From assembly GCA_949291655.1 (NCBI GenBank), contig CASEWT010000003.1, positions 1 through 51,538 on the forward strand: a stretch of 51,538 nucleotides of DNA, given 5' to 3'. The first letter of the stretch is position 1; each line of letters starts with the position of its first letter. The DNA is from an uncultured Bacillota bacterium. Its GTDB lineage: Bacteria > Bacillota_I > Bacilli_A > RFN20 > CAG-826. Positions 4,616 through 44,416 of this stretch are shown in pieces. The translations under genes were made by a program, and so were the position numbers. The notes below the pieces were generated by a model. The model saw nothing but the letters and a program-made list of their open reading frames with translations. It had not been told where the DNA came from and searched no databases.

Positions 4616-4642
4616 CTAGCACTCTTCCTTTCCAAGTGCTAA
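4616..4642. promoter_or_regulatory. CIRCE operator, promoter-proximal copy for hsp20
   Basis: CTAGCACTC-N9-AAGTGCTAA on the plus strand, matching the HrcA-binding CIRCE consensus (TTAGCACTC-N9-GAGTGCTAA) with one mismatch in each arm. It covers the predicted transcription start and the beginning of the leader. Confidence 0.92.
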
Positions 4643-36311: not shown

Positions 36312-38423
36312 CTATTTGAGGAGCAGCCCTTCCTTCTTGTCGAAGGAGAGAATGTACTTCTTTTCGGTCGAGAGGTTTCCTTCGACGATCTTAGTCGCCA
36401 GGTAAGTCTCGATTTTGTCGGAGATGAACCGCTTGAGGGGGCGGGCGCCGAATTTCGGGGAGTAAGCCGTCTCAAGGACATAGTCGACGATCGATTCGTC
36501 GAAGTCGACCACGTAGTAGCGCTCGGCAAGGCGCTTCCCCAGTTCGGAAAGCATTTTCTTGACGATAAGGCGCTGCATCGACTTGTCGAGCGGATTGAAG
36601 AAGACAATCTCGTCGATCCGGTTGAGGAATTCGGGCTTGAAGGTTTGATGAAGGAGGGGCTCCACCATTTCCCGATGCCCCTCGAGGATGAAGTCGCTCC
36701 CGAGGTTGCTCGTCATGATGATGATGGTGTTCTTGAAGTCGATGAGGCGGCCTTGGCTATCGGTCAAACGGCCTTCGTCGAGAATCTGAAGGAGGAGGTT
36801 GTAGACCTCCGGATTGGCCTTCTCGATTTCATCGAACAGAACGATTGAATAAGGGTTCCGCCTAACCTTTTCGGTCAGTTGGCCCCCTTCCTCGTAACCG
36901 ACATAGCCGGGCGGGGCCCCGATAAGGCGGCTGACCGAGTACTTTTCCATGTACTCGGACATGTCGATCCTGATGATGTTGCTTTCGTTGTCGAAGAGGG
37001 CTTCGGCCAAAGCCTTGCTGACCTCCGTTTTCCCAACGCCGGTCGGCCCGAGGAAAAGGAAGCTTCCGATCGGGCGATTCGGGTTTTGGATCCCGGCCCG
37101 CTGGCGGAGGATGGCATTGGAAACCAAGGTGACAGCCTCATCTTGCCCAATGACCCGCTTCTCGAGGGTCGCCTTGAGGTCGAGGACCTTCTCACGGTCG
37201 CCTTTCTCGATGCGGCTGACCGGGATATTGGTCATCCGCGACACGATTTTGGCAATGAGATCTTCGTCGACCACCTCGTTGACAAGGCGGTCTTCCTCCT
37301 TGCCCTTGCTGGCAACCTGATTCAGGCGCTTCTCCATCTCCGGTATCGTCTGATATTGGAGGCGGGAGGCGTTTTCGTAATCGCCGCGAGCAAAATACGT
37401 CTGCAAATCGAACTTGGCTTTCTCGATTTTGCCTTTGAGGTCCTTGGCATCCTTGATTTCGGCCTTCTCGACTTCCCACTTCTTGGAGAGCTCGTCGAAC
37501 TTGGCCTTGCAGCTTGCGAGGTCTTTCTCGAGGTCTTCGAGGCGGCGCTTGCTCGACTCGTCGGTTTCCTTTTTGAGATTCACCCGTTCGACCTCAAGCT
37601 GGCGCATCTTGCGATTGACCTCGTCTAACTCGACCGGCATCGACTCGATTTCGACCTTGATGGTCGCGCACGCCTCGTCGACGAGGTCAATGGCCTTGTC
37701 GGGAAGGAAGCGGCTCGTGATGTAGCGGTTCGAAAGGACGGCGGCGGCCACGAGGGCTCCGTCGGTTATTTCGACGCCGTGGTAGGACTCGAAGCGTTCC
37801 TTGAGTCCGCGAAGAATAGAGACCGTGTCTTCGACGGTCGGCTCCCCGACCATCACCGGCTGGAAACGCCGTTCAAGGGCGCGGTCCTTTTCGATGTAGT
37901 TGCGGTATTCGTTGAGGGTCGTCGCCCCGATGCAATCGATCTCCCCGCGTGCCAATAGAGGCTTGAGCATGTTCGAGGCATCCATGGCCCCGTCGGTCCG
38001 GCCAGCTCCGACGATCAAGTGGATCTCGTCGATGAAAAGAATGATCTTCCCGTTGCTGTCCTTGATTTTGTTGAGGACGGCCTTGAGCCGCTCCTCGAAC
38101 TCGCCGCGGTATTTCGCTCCCGCCAAAAGAGCTCCCATGTCGAGCTCATAGACTTCCTTGTCCTTCAAAGAGGAGGGAACATCGTCTTTGACGATCCGTT
38201 CGGCAAGGCCTTCCACGATGGCGGTCTTGCCAACGCCCGGCTCGCCCAAAAGGACGACGTTGTTCTTCGTCTTCCGGGCCAAGATCTGGATGACCTTCCG
38301 GATTTCGTCGTCGCGCCCAATGACCGGGTCGACTTTCCCTTTCTTCACGTCTTCGTTGATGTTCCGACCGAACTTCTGGAGGATGTTCTCGTCGTTTTGA
38401 TAATCCATCATTCCGTTATCCAT
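36312..38423 (-). CDS. clpB: ClpB disaggregase lacking the N-terminal domain
   Basis: Hsp100 hexamer that extracts polypeptides from aggregates with DnaK and small Hsps. NBD1 has Walker A GEPGVGKT (60-67) and Walker B ILFIDE (128-133). The pore loop is [12 protein letters not shown]. The coiled-coil M domain spans ~255-375. NBD2 has Walker A GPTGVGKT (459-466), the [13 protein letters not shown] pore loop and VLFDEIEKA. No ClpP-binding IGL-type loop is needed for this class. The protein starts only 35 residues before NBD1, so the ~150-residue substrate-binding N domain is absent (703 residues, compared with ~860). The start is secure: AAAGGAGG 8-9 nt upstream and a perfect CIRCE just beyond. 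Mycoplasma ClpB proteins also lack this domain. Confidence 0.95.
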
Positions 38424-38451: not shown

Positions 38452-38492
38452 TCTATACCATCTCTTTAGCACTCGCAAGTGTTGAGTGCTAA
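38452..38492 (-). promoter_or_regulatory. clpB promoter with perfect CIRCE
   Basis: TTAGCACTC-gcaagtgtt-GAGTGCTAA (38466-38492) is a flawless CIRCE box. TATAGA (38452-38457, minus) is the -10; the -35 region lies inside the CIRCE, so HrcA binding would block RNA polymerase. It sits between the hypA stop and clpB. Confidence 0.9.
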
Positions 38493-38501
38493 TTATGTCT
38501 T

Positions 38502-38849
38502 TCAGTCGTCAGTTTCGATTTCGACAATCTCGAACTCCGTTCCGTCGATGGTGACGAAATCGTCTCGGGCACCGCATTTCGGGCATACCCGGTCGCTATC
38601 GGCAACAAGAAAAACGAAGCCGCATTTTCGGCAACGGCCGTGGGCTTTCCGCACGTTCAGTTTGAGCAGGCAATCCGCGTAAGGAGTTCCCTCCCTGGCC
38701 GCTTCCCAGCACTCGAGAAGAAAACGGGGAACGACCATCGAAGCCTCCCCCACGTCCAAAGTCACGGAAGAGAGGTGGTTTATCCCTTCCCGTTTCAAGA
38801 GGTCGTCGAGCGTCGACATGAGCTCGAAGCACAAGCCCATCTCGTGCAT
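38502..38849 (-). CDS. hypA: HypA nickel metallochaperone
   Basis: HypA delivers nickel with HypB to [NiFe]-hydrogenase precursors, or to urease in some species. The N-terminal MHE supplies the nickel-binding His2, which fixes the start. The zinc ribbon is C73-x2-C76 ... C89-x2-C92. 115 residues is standard. The start lies 3 nt after the stop of the large flavoprotein, with AAGGAAA upstream, so it is the last gene of hypB / flavoprotein / hypA. No hydrogenase or urease structural gene is in the window. Confidence 0.93.
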   Translation of the reverse strand: MHEMGLCFELMSTLDDLLKREGINHLSSVTLDVGEASMVVPRFLLECWEAAREGTPYADCLLKLNVRKAHGRCRKCGFVFLVADSDRVCPKCGARDDFVTIDGTEFEIVEIETDD

Positions 38850-38851
38850 GG

Positions 38852-41698
38852 CTAGCGAATCGTTTCCTTCTTGCCGTCTTGGAGTTCAAGGTCGTCTTTG
38901 TTCACGAGCTTGGCCTTTCCCTTGCCGGTGAAGATGATCTTGAGGTTCCGCGAAAGAAGGTGGGGAGCGGCATTGGCCGTCGATTTTTCGTAAACGACGC
39001 CTTGGGCATCGAAGCGGCGTTCAAGATGGATGGCGTCGAATTCGCACCGGGTCGTGCATAGCCCGCATCCGACGCACATCGTCTCGTCGACGAAGGTCCG
39101 GCCGCACTTCAGGCAGCGTCCCGCTTCTTTCTTGACTTCGGCTTCGGTCAGGAGGACGCGGTCGTCTTTCATCTCATCCTCGTCCTTCGACCGCCTCACC
39201 TCGACCCGCGGAGCATTGTCGAAGCCTTGGACGACGACATTGTCCTTGTCGAGCATGTAAGAGGCCAGATACGGATTTTGGGCGCGGCCGATGGTGAGGG
39301 ACTGGCCGGGATGGACACGGCGGTGCATCGATTCGGAAGCCTCGTGTCCAGCTGCAATGGCGTCGATGACGAAACGGGGGCCATAGTGGCAGTCTCCGCC
39401 GGCGAAAACGTCAGGATCGTCGGTTTGCAGCGTCAAACCGTCGGCTTTGATTCGGCCCGAAGCCCCGAGGGCACAGGTAGTGCCGTCGAGCAAGCGCCCC
39501 CATTCGCATTGCTGCCCGATGGCGGCAATGAAATAGTCGCATTTGACTTCCAAAAGGTCGTCTTCGTCGTAAGAGGGGTTGAAGCGATAGTTTTCGTCAT
39601 AAACGGATAAGCACCTCTTGAGGACGGCGTTGCGGAGGACGCCGCGCTCCCCTTGGAATTCCTTGACGCCCCAACCGTTGTGGATGAGGATCCCTTCCTC
39701 TTCGGCCTCCTCGATTTCTTCCTCGGCCGCGGTCATGAGGCTCCGGCTTTCGAGACAATAAAGGTCGACGGCCGAAGCGCCATAACGAAGGGCGGTCCGA
39801 GCGACGTCAATCGCGACATTGCCTCCGCCCATGACGGCCACCCGGCCTCTTAGCCGCGGGGCCTTTCCGAGGTTGACCCCTTTAAGGAAGGCGATTCCGG
39901 AAAGAATGCCTTGGTTTTCTTCCCCGGCCACACCCAGCTTCCGGCTGCCTTGGGCTCCGATGGCCAGATAGAAGGCCTTGAAGCCTTCGTTTTTCAGTTC
40001 CTGAATCGAGACGTTCTTGCCGACCTCGACCCCGGTCTTGAATTCGACCCCGAGATCGCGGAGGACGTCGATTTCAGCTTCGACGACCCGCTTCTCGAGA
40101 CGGAAGGAAGGAATGCCGAGCGTCAGCATCCCCCCGAGGCGGTTCTCTTTTTCGAAGACGGTTACCGCATAGCCTTTCGCCGCGAGGTAATAGGCACAGC
40201 TGAGGCCCGAAGGTCCCCCGCCGATGACCGCCATCTTGATATCGTGGAATTCCGGGTGCTCAATTCGCGGCAAAACCCGGGTCTTTTTGTTCAAATCGAG
40301 TTCGGCAACGTACTTTTTGACCTCGTCGATCGACACCGCGTCGTCGATGCTTCCCCGGGTGCAGGCATCCTCGCAGCGTTTATTGCAAACGCGGCCGCAA
40401 ACAGCCGGGAATGGGTTTTTCTTCTTGATGAGGCGCAGGGCGTCTTCGTAGCGGCCTTGCCGGGCCAGCTCGAGGTAGCCCTCGATGGCAATGTGGGCCG
40501 GGCAGGCGACCTTGCAAGGAGCCGTTCCCGTCTCCGGCATGACATATTCGCGGTTATAGCGGTAATCGGGGTTCCACTTGTCGCTCCCCCACTTGTGGTG
40601 AAAGGCGCTGAGCGGCGTCTTGACCTTGATCGGCTTCTTGTTTTCGAGCCGTTCGCCCAGCTTCAAAGCATTCATCGGGCAGGCTTCGACGCACTCCCCG
40701 CAGGCGACGCACTTGTCGGGATCGATTTTGGAAATGTAGTTGCTTCTAACCATCGTCGCCGTGTGGAAGTACTCGCCCGTCCGAAGGGAAAAGCAAGAAC
40801 AGCCGCAGCAGTTGCACATGGCGTGGGTCGAACCGGGCCCATCGGTATTCGGCATCTCGTGCATGAGGCCGTTGTCCTCGGCCTTCTTCAGAATCGCATA
40901 GCACTCTTCCTTGCTGATGCGGCGGCCGCGCCCGGCATGGATGAAAGCCCGGGCCGCCTCGTTGAACTGGATGCACATGTCGTCCTCGAGATGGCCGCAG
41001 CCCTCGCCCTGGATCCGGCGGGCTACCCGGCAAGAACAAGGGGAAACGCAAATGTCGGTGGCCGTTTCGACATAATGGGAAATCTCTTCGTCGACAGTAT
41101 GCTTCGGGTCGTCCTTGATGGCGCTCTCGATCGGGATGACCCGCATGACGCCGCCGCCGATCGGAAGGTTCCCGGCCAGGGGCATGATGCGCTTGATGGT
41201 GTATTCGTTGAAGGCCTCCGGGATCTCGGGATGGGTTTCGGCGAGTTTGACGTTGTCGACCAGGCACTCCATGATTCCCGGCACGAAAATTGGGATCCAG
41301 TAGCCGCCCTGCTTCTTGTTGTTCTTGTCCGGGCCGACCTCCGGGTCCTCTGGATCGAACATCAAAATCCCGGTCATCGCCAGGGCGCTAAGCATCGGCG
41401 CCGCCTTTTCGACCGGCATCTTGTTCTTCTTGGCGACATCCTCGACCGTATAGTGCTTCCGCAGCTTCATCGAGAGGACGAGTTTGGCCTCTTCGTCGCT
41501 TACGCAGCAAGCGAGGGCATTGTACTCGGGGTCTCCAGCCACGACCTTGACACCGGGTAGCGTCTGGATGTGATTGGCAAGCTTGGTTATGAACTTTCTT
41601 TCTTCTTTCCCGGAGGGCAAAGCGTTTTTGACTGGGCCGTCCTTATAGATGCCTTCGGCATAGTCTTGCTTGTCGACGCGATACTTTTTCTCGTCCAT
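38852..41698 (-). CDS. Large multi-cluster Fe-S flavoprotein (GltD-like NAD(P)H oxidoreductase with Cys-rich N-terminal module)
   Basis: 948 residues in four parts. Residues 1-320 hold an unusual Cys-rich module with C217, C221, C223, C234, C242 and a cluster C295-C302 (CNCCGCSC). Residues 330-340 carry a [4Fe-4S] motif, CVACGECVEAC. Residues ~390-870 are GltD-like: the C395/C399/C434/C438/C442/C446 cluster ligands, the FAD Rossmann GGGPSGLSCAYYLAA and a second nucleotide site in VAVMGGGNVAIDVA. The C-terminus has further CxxC and a CVGCGLCTTRC ferredoxin motif. It should pass electrons between NAD(P)H and a low-potential carrier in the cytoplasm. AAGGAGG precedes the ATG. Its placement between hypB and hypA suggests a link to nickel or hydrogen metabolism, which is inference. 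Confidence 0.88.
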   Translation of the reverse strand: MDEKKYRVDKQDYAEGIYKDGPVKNALPSGKEERKFITKLANHIQTLPGVKVVAGDPEYNALACCVSDEEAKLVLSMKLRKHYTVEDVAKKNKMPVEKAAPMLSALAMTGILMFDPEDPEVGPDKNNKKQGGYWIPIFVPGIMECLVDNVKLAETHPEIPEAFNEYTIKRIMPLAGNLPIGGGVMRVIPIESAIKDDPKHTVDEEISHYVETATDICVSPCSCRVARRIQGEGCGHLEDDMCIQFNEAARAFIHAGRGRRISKEECYAILKKAEDNGLMHEMPNTDGPGSTHAMCNCCGCSCFSLRTGEYFHTATMVRSNYISKIDPDKCVACGECVEACPMNALKLGERLENKKPIKVKTPLSAFHHKWGSDKWNPDYRYNREYVMPETGTAPCKVACPAHIAIEGYLELARQGRYEDALRLIKKKNPFPAVCGRVCNKRCEDACTRGSIDDAVSIDEVKKYVAELDLNKKTRVLPRIEHPEFHDIKMAVIGGGPSGLSCAYYLAAKGYAVTVFEKENRLGGMLTLGIPSFRLEKRVVEAEIDVLRDLGVEFKTGVEVGKNVSIQELKNEGFKAFYLAIGAQGSRKLGVAGEENQGILSGIAFLKGVNLGKAPRLRGRVAVMGGGNVAIDVARTALRYGASAVDLYCLESRSLMTAAEEEIEEAEEEGILIHNGWGVKEFQGERGVLRNAVLKRCLSVYDENYRFNPSYDEDDLLEVKCDYFIAAIGQQCEWGRLLDGTTCALGASGRIKADGLTLQTDDPDVFAGGDCHYGPRFVIDAIAAGHEASESMHRRVHPGQSLTIGRAQNPYLASYMLDKDNVVVQGFDNAPRVEVRRSKDEDEMKDDRVLLTEAEVKKEAGRCLKCGRTFVDETMCVGCGLCTTRCEFDAIHLERRFDAQGVVYEKSTANAAPHLLSRNLKIIFTGKGKAKLVNKDDLELQDGKKETIR

Positions 41699-41701
41699 CC
41701 T

Positions 41702-42376
41702 TCACTCCTCCTTATAGGCTTCAACAAGCCTCAATAGATAGGCAGCCAGTTCCTCGATCCCCTCGCCCGTTTTGGCCGAAACCGGGAAAAAGCAGGCCTC
41801 GGGATTCAAGCGCCGGATGTTTTCCTTCGCCTGATCGATCGAGAAATCGAAATATGGCAAGACGTCGACCTTCGAGAAAACAAAGGTCGAGCAAACCTTG
41901 AACATCAACGGGTATTTGAGAGGCTTGTCGTCGCCCTCGGGAATCGAAAGGATGTTGAGGCTCGAAACAGCCCCGGTATCGAATTCGGCCGGGCAGACGA
42001 GGTTGCCGACGTTTTCGAGAATCACGAGGTCAAAGCCGTCGATACCGAGGCCTTCGAGCCCCTCTTTCGTCATTTCGGCATCGAGGTGACAGGCTCCGTT
42101 AGTGTGCAGTTGGATGGTCTTTACGTCGGTCTTTTCGCTGATTGTCTCGGCATCGACCGCCCCGTCGATATCGGCTTCCATCACGGCGATCTTCAATTTG
42201 TCTTTGAGCCGATTGATCAAAGAAACGAGAAGAGTCGTCTTCCCGCTCCCGGGTGAGGACATGACGTTAAGAAGATAAACGCCTTTTCCTTTGAGGAATT
42301 GACGAAGTTCCTCGGCCCGCTTTTCGTTATGCGAAAAAACGGATTCCTTGACGCTGATAACCTTGAATCTATCCAT
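41702..42376 (-). CDS. hypB: HypB nickel-incorporation GTPase
   Basis: GTPase that hands nickel to HypA and target enzymes. P-loop SPGSGKTT (41-48), the conserved NGACHLDAEM metal-site motif (Cys and His), ENVGNLVCPAEFD and a SKVD base-specificity motif are visible. The 224 residues lack the N-terminal His-rich nickel store seen in some species. First gene of the trio with the flavoprotein (3-nt gap) and hypA. Start: ATG with a GAGGGGG ribosome site and a TACAAT -10 box 14 nt before the start. Confidence 0.95.
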   Translation of the reverse strand: MDRFKVISVKESVFSHNEKRAEELRQFLKGKGVYLLNVMSSPGSGKTTLLVSLINRLKDKLKIAVMEADIDGAVDAETISEKTDVKTIQLHTNGACHLDAEMTKEGLEGLGIDGFDLVILENVGNLVCPAEFDTGAVSSLNILSIPEGDDKPLKYPLMFKVCSTFVFSKVDVLPYFDFSIDQAKENIRRLNPEACFFPVSAKTGEGIEELAAYLLRLVEAYKEE

Positions 42377-42390
42377 GTCTATGCCCCCTC

Positions 42391-42396
42391 ATTGTA
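42391..42396 (-). promoter_or_regulatory. -10 box of the hypB operon
   Basis: Minus strand TACAAT, one mismatch to consensus, 14 nt before the hypB ATG. No clear -35 was found. Confidence 0.5.
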
Positions 42397-42444
42397 GGGC
42401 AAAGAAACGATAATGGCCACTTGGCAAACCGGCCGACGGGCGGC

Positions 42445-43095
42445 TCAAAAAAGCGGTAAATCGGTATACTCATCGACAAAGCGGCAAGCCAAGGAGTAAT
42501 CATCAAATAAGCAGACGCCCGTTTCGGGGGGCCTTGCCTTGACCATGAAAAGGTGGCTTGGCCGTCCGTTATGCTCGAGAAACGCCTTGACGAAATCCTC
42601 GCCATAAGCCCGGCTCATGGATAGGGTATCGTCCTTCGTCGCTGCAATTTCGACGAAGCCGAAAGCTTCCCGGTACAGTTTCGGAAGCGGGGATTTGCCT
42701 TTCTCGCCGGCAAGAATGCAAACCAGTTTCCGCGACCTCTCCGCGGCAAAAGGCCCGATCATAGCGGCAAAGCCCTTCCAGTCTTCGTTGGAGAAAAGAG
42801 ACATCAGCCAGCCCGTGGCGCCGATGGCAAAGCCGGCTTTCCCGTCCTCAAGAAGGAAGCACGAGGCATTTTCGTAGTCGTTGTCCTCGGCCGGCGCCAG
42901 GAAATCGCCATGCAGAAGGTAGGCACGGTTGATCGTGAGGGCCCTAGCAAAAGACGCTCCGCTGACCAATCGGAGTTCTTTTTTCCCTTCCGGGGTCGAA
43001 AGCGCGAGTACCGAAGGCCCGACGGCCAACGACTTAGCCGCGGCAGCCTCCTCGGCCGGAAGGGGCGTTTTGACGTACCAAGCGGGGCAAACCAT
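42445..43095 (-). CDS. Hypothetical protein, 216 residues, leaderless
   Basis: Not recognised. Mixed alpha/beta composition, five Cys, no signal peptide or membrane segment; two parts with a GFAIGATGWLMSLF core and a C-terminal FVEIAATKDDTL-SMSRAYGEDFVKAF segment. It could be a small cytoplasmic enzyme or binding protein, but no motif is diagnostic. The chosen ATG at 43095 has no Shine-Dalgarno but a TATGAT hexamer exactly 6 nt before it, so a leaderless message is likely. The frame is open upstream to 43308 but would overlap the TPP riboswitch on the other strand. Divergent from the thiamine transporter. Confidence 0.7.
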   Translation of the reverse strand: MVCPAWYVKTPLPAEEAAAAKSLAVGPSVLALSTPEGKKELRLVSGASFARALTINRAYLLHGDFLAPAEDNDYENASCFLLEDGKAGFAIGATGWLMSLFSNEDWKGFAAMIGPFAAERSRKLVCILAGEKGKSPLPKLYREAFGFVEIAATKDDTLSMSRAYGEDFVKAFLEHNGRPSHLFMVKARPPETGVCLFDDYSLACRFVDEYTDLPLF

Positions 43096-43101
43096 GAGGC
43101 A

Positions 43102-43107
43102 ATCATA
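43102..43107 (-). promoter_or_regulatory. -10 box of the leaderless gene at 43095
   Basis: Minus strand TATGAT, then TGCCTC, then ATG. Confidence 0.5.
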
Positions 43108-43117
43108 GCGGCAAGTA

Positions 43118-43145
43118 TTGCTTTGGGCACGAAAGAAACAATAAT
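43118..43145 (+). promoter_or_regulatory. Promoter of the thiT riboswitch transcript
   Basis: TTGCTT (43118-43123), 16-nt spacer, AATAAT (43140-43145). The exact -10 is uncertain because several overlapping A/T hexamers are possible. Confidence 0.4.
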
Positions 43146-43146
43146 A

Positions 43147-43236
43147 TCGGTGCCCGGAGCTTCCCCGAGGAGGCTGAGAGGAGCCGATAATGGCGGCTCG
43201 ACGGTACCTGATCCAGGCAATGCTGGCGGAGGTAAC
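43147..43236 (+). ncRNA. TPP riboswitch aptamer (THI box)
   Basis: The two conserved core blocks are present in order: GGCTGAGAGGA (43172-43182) and, after a variable stem, TACCTGATCCAGGCAATG (43205-43222) followed by CTGGCGGAGG. GGTGCCC near 43149 is the usual 5' block. It senses thiamine pyrophosphate and sits directly ahead of a thiamine transporter gene. Confidence 0.95.
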
Positions 43237-43252
43237 CCTTTTTCTTTGGCGA

Positions 43253-43277
43253 GCCTCCCCGCGAAAGGAGGCTTTTT
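43253..43277 (+). terminator. Riboswitch expression platform: terminator that also hides the ribosome site
   Basis: GCCTCC-ccgcgaaa-GGAGGC plus TTTTT, ending 2 nt before the ATG. The right arm contains the AAAGGAGG ribosome site. GGAGG at 43228-43232, the 3' strand of the aptamer, can instead pair with CCTCC (43254-43258), giving a simple antiterminator. TPP binding should thus stop transcription and mask translation. Confidence 0.8.
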
Positions 43278-43279
43278 GC

Positions 43280-44416
43280 ATGGAACATGTCGACACCCCA
43301 ACACCCACAAAGAAAGGATTCGACTACGACGCTTTCCTTAAACGTTGGCTTTGGCTCATTGCCATCGTCTTCGCGGCGATCGTCTTCGTCGGATTGGCTT
43401 TCCCGCAGTTCGAAGCGAACCCCATCGAAGTGACCGGCGGTCCGATTCTCGTCGACGGGGAGCTCACAAACGGATACACCTTCACGCCCTTGGATGAAAT
43501 CGCCATCGGATTCGGAGCGCTTTTCGCCAACGGCGGAAACTGGATGATTCTCTGGCTTTATTTCCTCCCTCTCTTTTCTCTTATTTTGCTTGTCATATCG
43601 CCTTTTTGCGGTAAATATTCCTCGCATCTCGCCCTGACAGCGGCCATCGTGAGCCTTGTCGCCGGCGTCCTCTTCTTCATTTCCCCGACCCTCTTTGCAT
43701 ACGGCGAATGCTGGCAAGCTATCGGAAGCGACATCGCCCTCGATTACGGCGACCCGGGTTTCATTTACCTCGATGCGGCCTCCCCGGCCTTCCTCCCGGG
43801 AGCGGTCGTCATCGCTGCCCTGTCGCTTCTTTCCTCGCTCGTCAGTTTCTCGCTTTCGGCCAACCTCATCAAAATCAGCATCCGCGACATCTCGGAAATC
43901 GGCATCCTCTCGGCCCTGGCCATCGCCCTTCAATTCATCAAGATCCAAGTCGGGGCCGATGGAGGATCGATCAATTTGGGGCTCGTCCCGCTTTCCCTCA
44001 TTGCCCTGCGCCACGGACCCACGAAGGGTTTCATTGCCGGCGGCCTCGTCTATGGCATCATCACCTGCATAACCGATGGCTACGGCTTCCAAACCTATCC
44101 CTTCGACTACCTGATCGGCTTCGGCTCGATTGCCGAGATCGGCTTCTTCTCCAAGCTCTGCTTCAAGGGCGAAGACGGCTGGAATCCGCTTGGTTTCCTT
44201 TACATCTTCCTCGGAATCGTCCTCGCAACCTTGGTAAGGCTCATCGGCTCCACCATCTCCTCGATGGTCATCTACGGATACGATTTGGTGGCTGCCCTTG
44301 CTTACAACGGAGTCTACATCCCGGTCACGGGAGCCGTGACCCTAGCCTGCATGGAGGCCCTATACATACCGATTGCCAAAGTAAACCGAATCTTCCCGGT
44401 TGAGCGATACGCTTAG
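43280..44416 (+). CDS. thiT: Thiamine ECF transporter S-component ThiT with an extra N-terminal membrane domain
   Basis: Residues ~200-378 match ThiT (YuaJ), the substrate-binding membrane subunit of an energy-coupling-factor importer: ISEIGILSALAIALQFIKI, the GGSINLGLVPLSLIALRHG segment and GLVYGIITCITDGYG followed by FDYLIGFG. The first ~200 residues are additional: a cytoplasmic start, helices near 22-42, 83-103, 112-132 and 172-195, and an outside loop of ~40 residues. ThiT is normally ~180-200 residues, so this is a fusion or duplication-type enlargement. The start at 43280 is fixed by AAAGGAGG in the riboswitch hairpin. EcfA/EcfT partners are not in the window. Confidence 0.9.
   Translation: MEHVDTPTPTKKGFDYDAFLKRWLWLIAIVFAAIVFVGLAFPQFEANPIEVTGGPILVDGELTNGYTFTPLDEIAIGFGALFANGGNWMILWLYFLPLFSLILLVISPFCGKYSSHLALTAAIVSLVAGVLFFISPTLFAYGECWQAIGSDIALDYGDPGFIYLDAASPAFLPGAVVIAALSLLSSLVSFSLSANLIKISIRDISEIGILSALAIALQFIKIQVGADGGSINLGLVPLSLIALRHGPTKGFIAGGLVYGIITCITDGYGFQTYPFDYLIGFGSIAEIGFFSKLCFKGEDGWNPLGFLYIFLGIVLATLVRLIGSTISSMVIYGYDLVAALAYNGVYIPVTGAVTLACMEALYIPIAKVNRIFPVERYA

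Follow-up and report, generated by a model that had tools for sequence, protein, structure and literature searches.

HypA and HypB are familiar from hydrogenase maturation, and the presence of their genes where no hydrogenase is in sight raises the question of which protein the two chaperones serve. Such a case was pointed out by a sequence-only reading of the window, by which we mean the whole stretch of 51,538 nt analysed here, from an uncultured Bacillota bacterium. There, hypB and hypA flank a gene for a 948-residue Fe-S flavoprotein, which had been taken either for the electron partner of a remote [NiFe]-hydrogenase or for a protein that itself needs nickel-related maturation, and the trio for a candidate undescribed system. 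The ORF coordinates and profile matches bear out this arrangement, including the short gaps on either side of the flavoprotein gene (3 nt to hypB, 41699-41701; 2 nt to hypA, 38850-38851). The genes are as follows:

41702-42376, minus strand: hypB, 224 aa, GTPase nickel chaperone; first gene of the trio, ATG start
38852-41698, minus strand: IsrA-like Fe-S flavoprotein, 948 aa; middle gene of the trio, ATG start
38502-38849, minus strand: hypA, 115 aa, nickel metallochaperone; last gene of the trio, ATG start

In the window, clpB lies downstream of the trio and an unrelated gene upstream. Loci in other genomes have recurrent extra neighbours, namely a DUF5692 cluster (21 loci) and a GntR regulator (16 loci), neither of which adjoins the trio within the window. 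A promoter and terminator scan returned hits no more numerous than in shuffles; one of its terminator-like hits is a CIRCE element.

The chaperones keep their nickel ligands

HypB passes the TIGR00073 cut-off (227 bits against 121), and its P-loop, SSPGSGKT, as well as the G-domain nickel ligands C96/H97/C128, are intact both here and in every aligned homolog having the positions. HypA, of which the genome holds a single copy, passes Pfam PF01155 (86.6 bits, cut-off 28.9); because its 61.3 bits on NCBIfam TIGR00100 fall under the equivalog cut-off of 88.1, we file it as a HypA-family protein, which, judging by its sequence, is divergent and not a TIGR00100 equivalog. Its N-terminal Met-His-Glu nickel site is present, with His2/Glu3 found in 100/100 homologs, and the zinc cysteines Cys73/76/89/92, arranged in two CxxC motifs, in 99/99.

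A Cys-rich module precedes a GltD-like flavoprotein

Profile searches of the 948-aa protein recovered Fer4_20, Pyr_redox_2 and a further pair of 4Fe-4S motifs, in keeping with the earlier count of at least three Fe-S motifs. In the N-terminal part, residues 1-320 match no Pfam family, even when residues 25-372 are searched alone. From the N-terminus, the features are:

41291-41530, minus strand: winged-helix domain, residues 57-136 (AlphaFold model and fold search)
40730-41290, minus strand: Cys-rich module, candidate nickel/Fe-S site, residues 137-323 (six invariant Cys)
40676-40711, minus strand: ferredoxin-type 4Fe-4S motif CVACGECVEACP, residues 330-341 (PF00037, invariant Cys)
40286-40525, minus strand: Fer4_20 domain, residues 392-471 (PF14691, 6.8e-21)
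39347-40237, minus strand: FAD/NAD(P)H-binding GltD-like core, residues 488-784 (PF07992, 4e-27)
39044-39115, minus strand: C-terminal Cys motifs including a ferredoxin-type 4Fe-4S site, residues 862-885 (conserved Cys)

In the AlphaFold model of residues 25-372 (pLDDT 87.5), the first domain resembles winged-helix proteins (best Z 7.5, rmsd 3.3 over 96 residues), and some homologs of the flavoprotein match TrmB/MarR/DUF7342 profiles. This domain dominates the fold search, which is therefore uninformative on the fold of the Cys-rich part, and the latter has no credible sequence relative in the PDB (best E 0.25). Its six cysteines, C221, C223, C242, C295, C297 and C302, are invariant in all of the 116 aligned sequences holding the position, two stand-alone proteins included. 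H280 is kept in the flavoproteins but not in the stand-alone proteins, so no ligand beyond the six cysteines was identified.

Fer4_20, a domain that binds 4Fe-4S clusters in the related proteins Nfn and DPD, has six invariant cysteines (395, 399, 434, 438, 442 and 446), and Cys 862, 865, 875, 878, 881 and 885 near the C-terminus are conserved in homologs. The best structural matches of the GltD-like core are the NfnABC large subunit, Nfn, DPD and the GOGAT small subunit. An identity as GltD, the glutamate synthase small subunit, was rejected: the scores on TIGR01316/01317/01318 (254, 202 and 244 bits) lie under the respective cut-offs of 472, 448 and 483 and cover residues ~390-793 only, with the N-terminal third unmatched. 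With the large subunit of bifurcating NfnABC/StnABC (9bov, 9n5u, 8oh5) and with NfnB/GltD/DPD, the window protein has in common the GltD-like core, Fer4_20 and the FAD and NAD(P) sites, but the sequence match spans its residues ~390-870 only and leaves the Cys-rich module unmatched. None of these systems is known to be linked to HypA/HypB.

The window protein resembles IsrA and its clade-9 homologs

The trio is not an undescribed system, as had been supposed, since IsrA of Acetobacterium wieringae ISORED-2 / strain Y, which putatively reduces isoprene (PMC10134865, PMC9765523), and its clade-9 homologs were published in 2023 by authors who noted frequent hypA/hypB neighbours and suggested a possible six-Cys nickel site (PMC10134865). 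On sequence grounds, the window protein fits these clade-9 homologs. Both it and IsrA are ~900 aa long and combine Fer4_20 and FAD/NAD(P)-binding domains with two additional 4Fe-4S motifs; their CxC pairs are 74 residues apart (180/182 and 254/256 in IsrA, 221/223 and 295/297 here), and these pairs and the first Fer4 motif are displaced from the published IsrA coordinates by a constant 41 residues. Both have hypA and hypB as neighbours in a genome without [NiFe]-hydrogenase, whereas the five-gene operon of IsrA includes an additional hypA as well as a ferredoxin of 350 aa (VUZ27135.1), both absent at the window trio. A 26-residue stretch (IsrA 756-782) reported to distinguish the isoprene-reducing subclade (PMC10134865) appears to be missing here, to judge from motif spacing against the published coordinates. 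The nearest Acetobacterium homolog in the comparison set, from an Acetobacterium woodii MAG (L079), is 49% identical to the window protein. New with respect to the published work are the absence of hydrogenase and HypD from 196 genomes, the hypA linkage, the match in copy number and the stand-alone module cases.

hypA and hypB follow the module across genomes

The arrangement is far from chance and is seen again across many genomes. We surveyed 196 genomes of the order, 265 of the phylum and 80 named loci; because the genomes are related, association statistics from counts such as the following are inflated. Within the order, a same-strand hypA follows 77 of the 81 IsrA-like segments, and three of the four without it are fragments. 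Of the 13 genomes with two IsrA-like genes, 12 also have two hypA. Among the named loci, hypA follows in 68/80, with the full hypB-isrA-hypA order in 37/80, and these arrangements span Clostridia, Spirochaetes, Anaerolineae and Desulfobacterales. Neither hypA nor hypB adjoins the gene in six of the 80 (L045, L098, L101, L104, L105 and L108), which may use a copy elsewhere in the genome. Of the two findings set beforehand as speaking against the sequence-only reading, a trio that is not conserved and a hydrogenase in the genome, neither came true: the gene order recurs, and no hydrogenase was detected in the window's own genome.

Two order genomes have intact hypAB on long contigs and no IsrA-like flavoprotein; in both, a stand-alone ~365-aa module protein adjoins hypAB, and the order yielded no further protein of this kind. 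The phylum sample adds L162, which on the basis of its position counts as a third case. In that sample, the Cys-rich module is present in 14 of the 15 genomes with HypA; the one exception, G293, is alone in having a [NiFe]-hydrogenase match. The chaperones therefore track the Cys-rich module and not the GltD-like part. Stand-alone Cys-rich ferredoxins of ~350-370 aa (L111, L112 and VUZ27135.1 of the isr operon) have the same module followed by 4Fe-4S motifs and share hypAB neighbours with the window protein, although they are without its flavin/NAD(P) part. The identity of L111 and L112 to the window protein is 24-27%.

Proposed function and alternatives

That the flavoprotein itself needs nickel-related maturation is well supported: the gene order is conserved, hypA is co-duplicated with the IsrA-like gene and linked to the module almost one to one, the chaperones have intact nickel ligands, and the other nickel enzymes searched for are absent. 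We consider it probable that HypB and HypA insert nickel into the Cys-rich module of an IsrA-like reductase that would depend on NAD(P)H and may act on C=C bonds. The trio would then be a dedicated maturation-plus-enzyme unit, in which the GTPase HypB and HypA would act as nickel donor pair for the N-terminal module and place the metal, probably, at C221, C223, C242, C295, C297 and C302. Electrons from NAD(P)H would enter at the FAD of the GltD-like core and travel along the canonical 4Fe-4S clusters to the module, where a substrate would be reduced, at a C=C bond if IsrA is a guide. A precedent for hypA/hypB beside a non-hydrogenase enzyme is found in the metformin/guanidine hydrolase operons, where the adjoining pair was required, by experiment, for the nickel-dependent activity of metformin hydrolase (PMC11399263); the target in that case, a ureohydrolase, has no relation to the Fe-S flavoprotein.

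The six cysteines alone need not mean nickel, because a related ~430-aa family (L159, L160, L161 and L164) keeps the same pattern, is not linked to HypA and, in three of its four genomes, has no HypA above cut-off. This family, like the divergence of the window HypA below the TIGR00100 cut-off, would suit repurposed chaperones that act on the module to yield a nickel-free centre, whether Fe-S or of another metal. We find this unlikely, as His2/Glu3 of HypA and Cys-His-Cys of HypB are fully conserved among the homologs of the two chaperones, which would not be required after a change to another metal.

It is still less probable that HypA/HypB load another, unlinked nickel enzyme, with the flavoprotein as its redox partner or mere neighbour. 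No [NiFe]-hydrogenase, HypD, CODH/prismane or urease was detectable in the window's own genome (assembly 91% complete), a search whose scope left room for lactate racemase or nickel glyoxalase; against such a target, hypA is co-duplicated with the IsrA-like gene, follows it across phyla and adjoins the stand-alone module where the flavoprotein is missing. A remote [NiFe]-hydrogenase with the flavoprotein as electron partner, which the known role of HypA and HypB had brought to mind, is barely credible and, as far as genomes go, refuted, by the absence of large subunit and HypD from the own genome and from the order (PF00374 in 0/196 genomes, HypD in 0/196).

Implications

A further and more tentative step, on which we stay just short of an even judgement, would be to regard the module as a previously unclassified Ni-Fe-S catalytic domain, fused or stand-alone, matured by HypA/HypB only and widespread in anaerobes without [NiFe]-hydrogenase. 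The stand-alone ~365-aa protein offers a small object for a direct test of the nickel question. The presence of hypA/hypB should not be taken as a sign of hydrogenase; the proposed function, if true, would explain why the two genes are retained in so many genomes without [NiFe]-hydrogenase, and, if the module holds nickel, many anaerobes of gut and sediment would have a class of nickel enzyme additional to the classical ones.

Results

The hypB–flavoprotein–hypA linkage described in the sequence-only reading is correct, as gene coordinates, the 3-nt and 2-nt spacing within the trio and profile matches agree.

Genes of the trio
41702-42376, minus strand: hypB, passing the NCBIfam cut-off
38852-41698, minus strand: Fe-S flavoprotein of 948 aa, GltD-like core with Fer4_20
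38502-38849, minus strand: hypA, above the Pfam but below the NCBIfam cut-off, hence a divergent HypA

Pfam/NCBIfam profile searches show that the flavoprotein joins a GltD-like FAD/NAD(P) core to Fer4_20 and two further 4Fe-4S motifs, while its N-terminal third matches no Pfam family of its own. Residues 25-372 were modelled confidently (pLDDT 87.5), and a fold search found the first domain of this model (about residues 57-136) similar to winged-helix proteins. For the full-length model (pLDDT 81), structural matches are to large subunits of NfnABC, to Nfn and DPD, and to small subunits of GOGAT.

Upstream of hypB lie a GTG-initiated gene for 287 aa (42445-43308), matching no Pfam or NCBIfam family, and a ThiT-like transporter component (43190-44416) with ~230 additional residues ahead of its ThiT domain. 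Next after hypA comes clpB (36312-38423, minus strand); its match to the ClpB model does not start until position 151, and its product seems, by sequence, to lack the N-terminal domain. A perfect CIRCE element (HrcA operator), TTAGCACTC-N9-GAGTGCTAA, occupies 38466-38492 between hypA and clpB; no perfect copy is expected by chance in the window, which contains another copy, with two mismatches, at 4616-4642.

The absence of a hydrogenase extends beyond the contig. No match to PF00374 ([NiFe]-hydrogenase), CODH/prismane or urease was found in the window's own genome (1.26 Mb, 107 contigs, 91% complete), and neither PF00374 nor HypD was detected in any of the 196 genomes of the order, control genomes known to carry them having given matches.

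The protein resembles IsrA, the putative isoprene reductase of Acetobacterium wieringae described by Kronen et al. in 2023 (PMC10134865), which isoprene strongly induces (log2 fold change 10.7) along with HypA, HypB and a ferredoxin, in a genome without [NiFe]-hydrogenase and hypCDEF. The CxC pairs of the window protein (221/223 and 295/297) and of IsrA (180/182 and 254/256) are both spaced 74 residues, and the first Fer4 motif is offset by the same 41 residues as these pairs; the window protein therefore fits, as a new member, the IsrA family proposed in 2023. Having neither a second hypA nor the ferredoxin gene, the window locus is not the five-gene isr operon.

IsrA-like proteins occur in 66 genomes of the order, HypA above cut-off in 70, HypB in 69, and IsrA-like protein and HypA together in 65; given the relatedness of the genomes, Fisher p-values for this association have descriptive value only. 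By position, a same-strand hypA follows 77 of 81 IsrA-like segments, the exceptions being three fragments and one whole gene (G168, contig C15), in a genome whose other IsrA-like copy does have hypA. Among 13 order genomes with two IsrA-like genes, 12 carry two hypA. Outside this sample, hypA comes next in 68 of 80 named loci (Clostridia, Bacilli, Spirochaetes, Anaerolineae, Desulfobacterales and others), 37 of which keep the complete order hypB-isrA-hypA, several further loci being cut by contig ends. Of 988 homologs in clade 9, the IsrA group defined in the 2023 study, 73% have hypA and 56% have hypB nearby (PMC10134865).

Several order genomes hold two hypB genes, tandem or divergent (for example G028:C4:41217-41846 and 41965-42582; G019:C55:7952-9265; G140:C19:1355-2660), with hypA staying at about one per IsrA-like gene. 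DUF5692 family and flavin amine-oxidase-like proteins recur beside IsrA-like genes in other genomes (L080:4697-5698, L055:2907-4463, L042:10922-12472, L040:3331-4605), possibly hinting at substrates.

Five HypA copies in the order do not follow an IsrA-like match: one lies behind an IsrA-like gene that is truncated where its contig ends (L114), one begins at base 5 of its contig and one, without a partner, has an internal stop (L115). The other two (G175, G184) belong to hypA/hypB pairs on longer contigs, adjoining stand-alone proteins of 362 and 368 aa that share the CxC...C...CxCCxCxC pattern of the Cys-rich module (residues 137-323 of the window protein) and two 4Fe-4S motifs; the flavoprotein part is absent. 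An order-wide search with one of the two as query found no further stand-alone module proteins, the other module-covering matches being IsrA-like proteins themselves. Across 265 genomes of the phylum, HypA exceeds the cut-off in 15, and 14 of these contain the module, including G349, where it takes the form of a stand-alone protein of 371 aa, with 0.9 kb between the end of the module match and hypA. A [NiFe]-hydrogenase match was obtained in just one genome of the sample, the fifteenth (G293); this match lies ~4 kb from hypA and spans profile positions 1-70 only.

In an alignment of 116 sequences drawn from the order and the named loci, C221, C223, C242, C295, C297 and C302 show no variation in any sequence that includes the position, and C234, C298 and C300 are variable; both stand-alone proteins of the order keep the six, at 24–27% identity. 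HypA retains His2 and Glu3 in 100/100 sequences and its four zinc cysteines in 99/99, and HypB retains Cys96-His97...Cys128 in all sequences holding those positions; both are predicted to be intact nickel chaperones.

Discussion

HypA and HypB follow the Cys-rich module. The stand-alone module beside hypAB is a step beyond the earlier study, which found no association of stand-alone ferredoxin with HypA or HypB (PMC10134865), and the new element here is cross-genome evidence as to the portion of the protein with which HypA and HypB are associated.

In the simplest account, HypB and HypA would hand nickel to the module, where electrons from NAD(P)H, passed on by FAD and then the 4Fe-4S clusters, would reach the substrate. 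That nickel may be bound by the Cys6 site of IsrA, with the pairs Cys180/182 and Cys254/256, was proposed in PMC10134865, and metformin hydrolase is a precedent for an enzyme other than a hydrogenase being served by a hypA/hypB pair next to its gene (PMC11399263). IsrA activity itself is based on induction and strain comparison, no purified enzyme or metal measurement having been found in Kronen et al. (PMC10134865) or Jin et al.; by analogy with IsrA, and solely from it, the window protein may reduce C=C bonds.

Against equating the six cysteines with nickel stands a stand-alone family of ~430 aa (L159, L160, L161, L164) that shares the Cys pattern (CYCRHK...C...CNCCGCCC), likewise has two 4Fe-4S motifs and shows no linkage to hypA. 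No HypA exceeds the cut-off in three of the four genomes; the fourth contains, apart from this protein, an IsrA-like gene accompanied by a hypA of its own. Two members were scanned against NCBIfam, and matches are restricted to their ferredoxin part. This family would either carry a nickel-free cluster at the same place or obtain its metal otherwise. In the window's host, an unusually clean case can be made for dedicated maturation with nickel.
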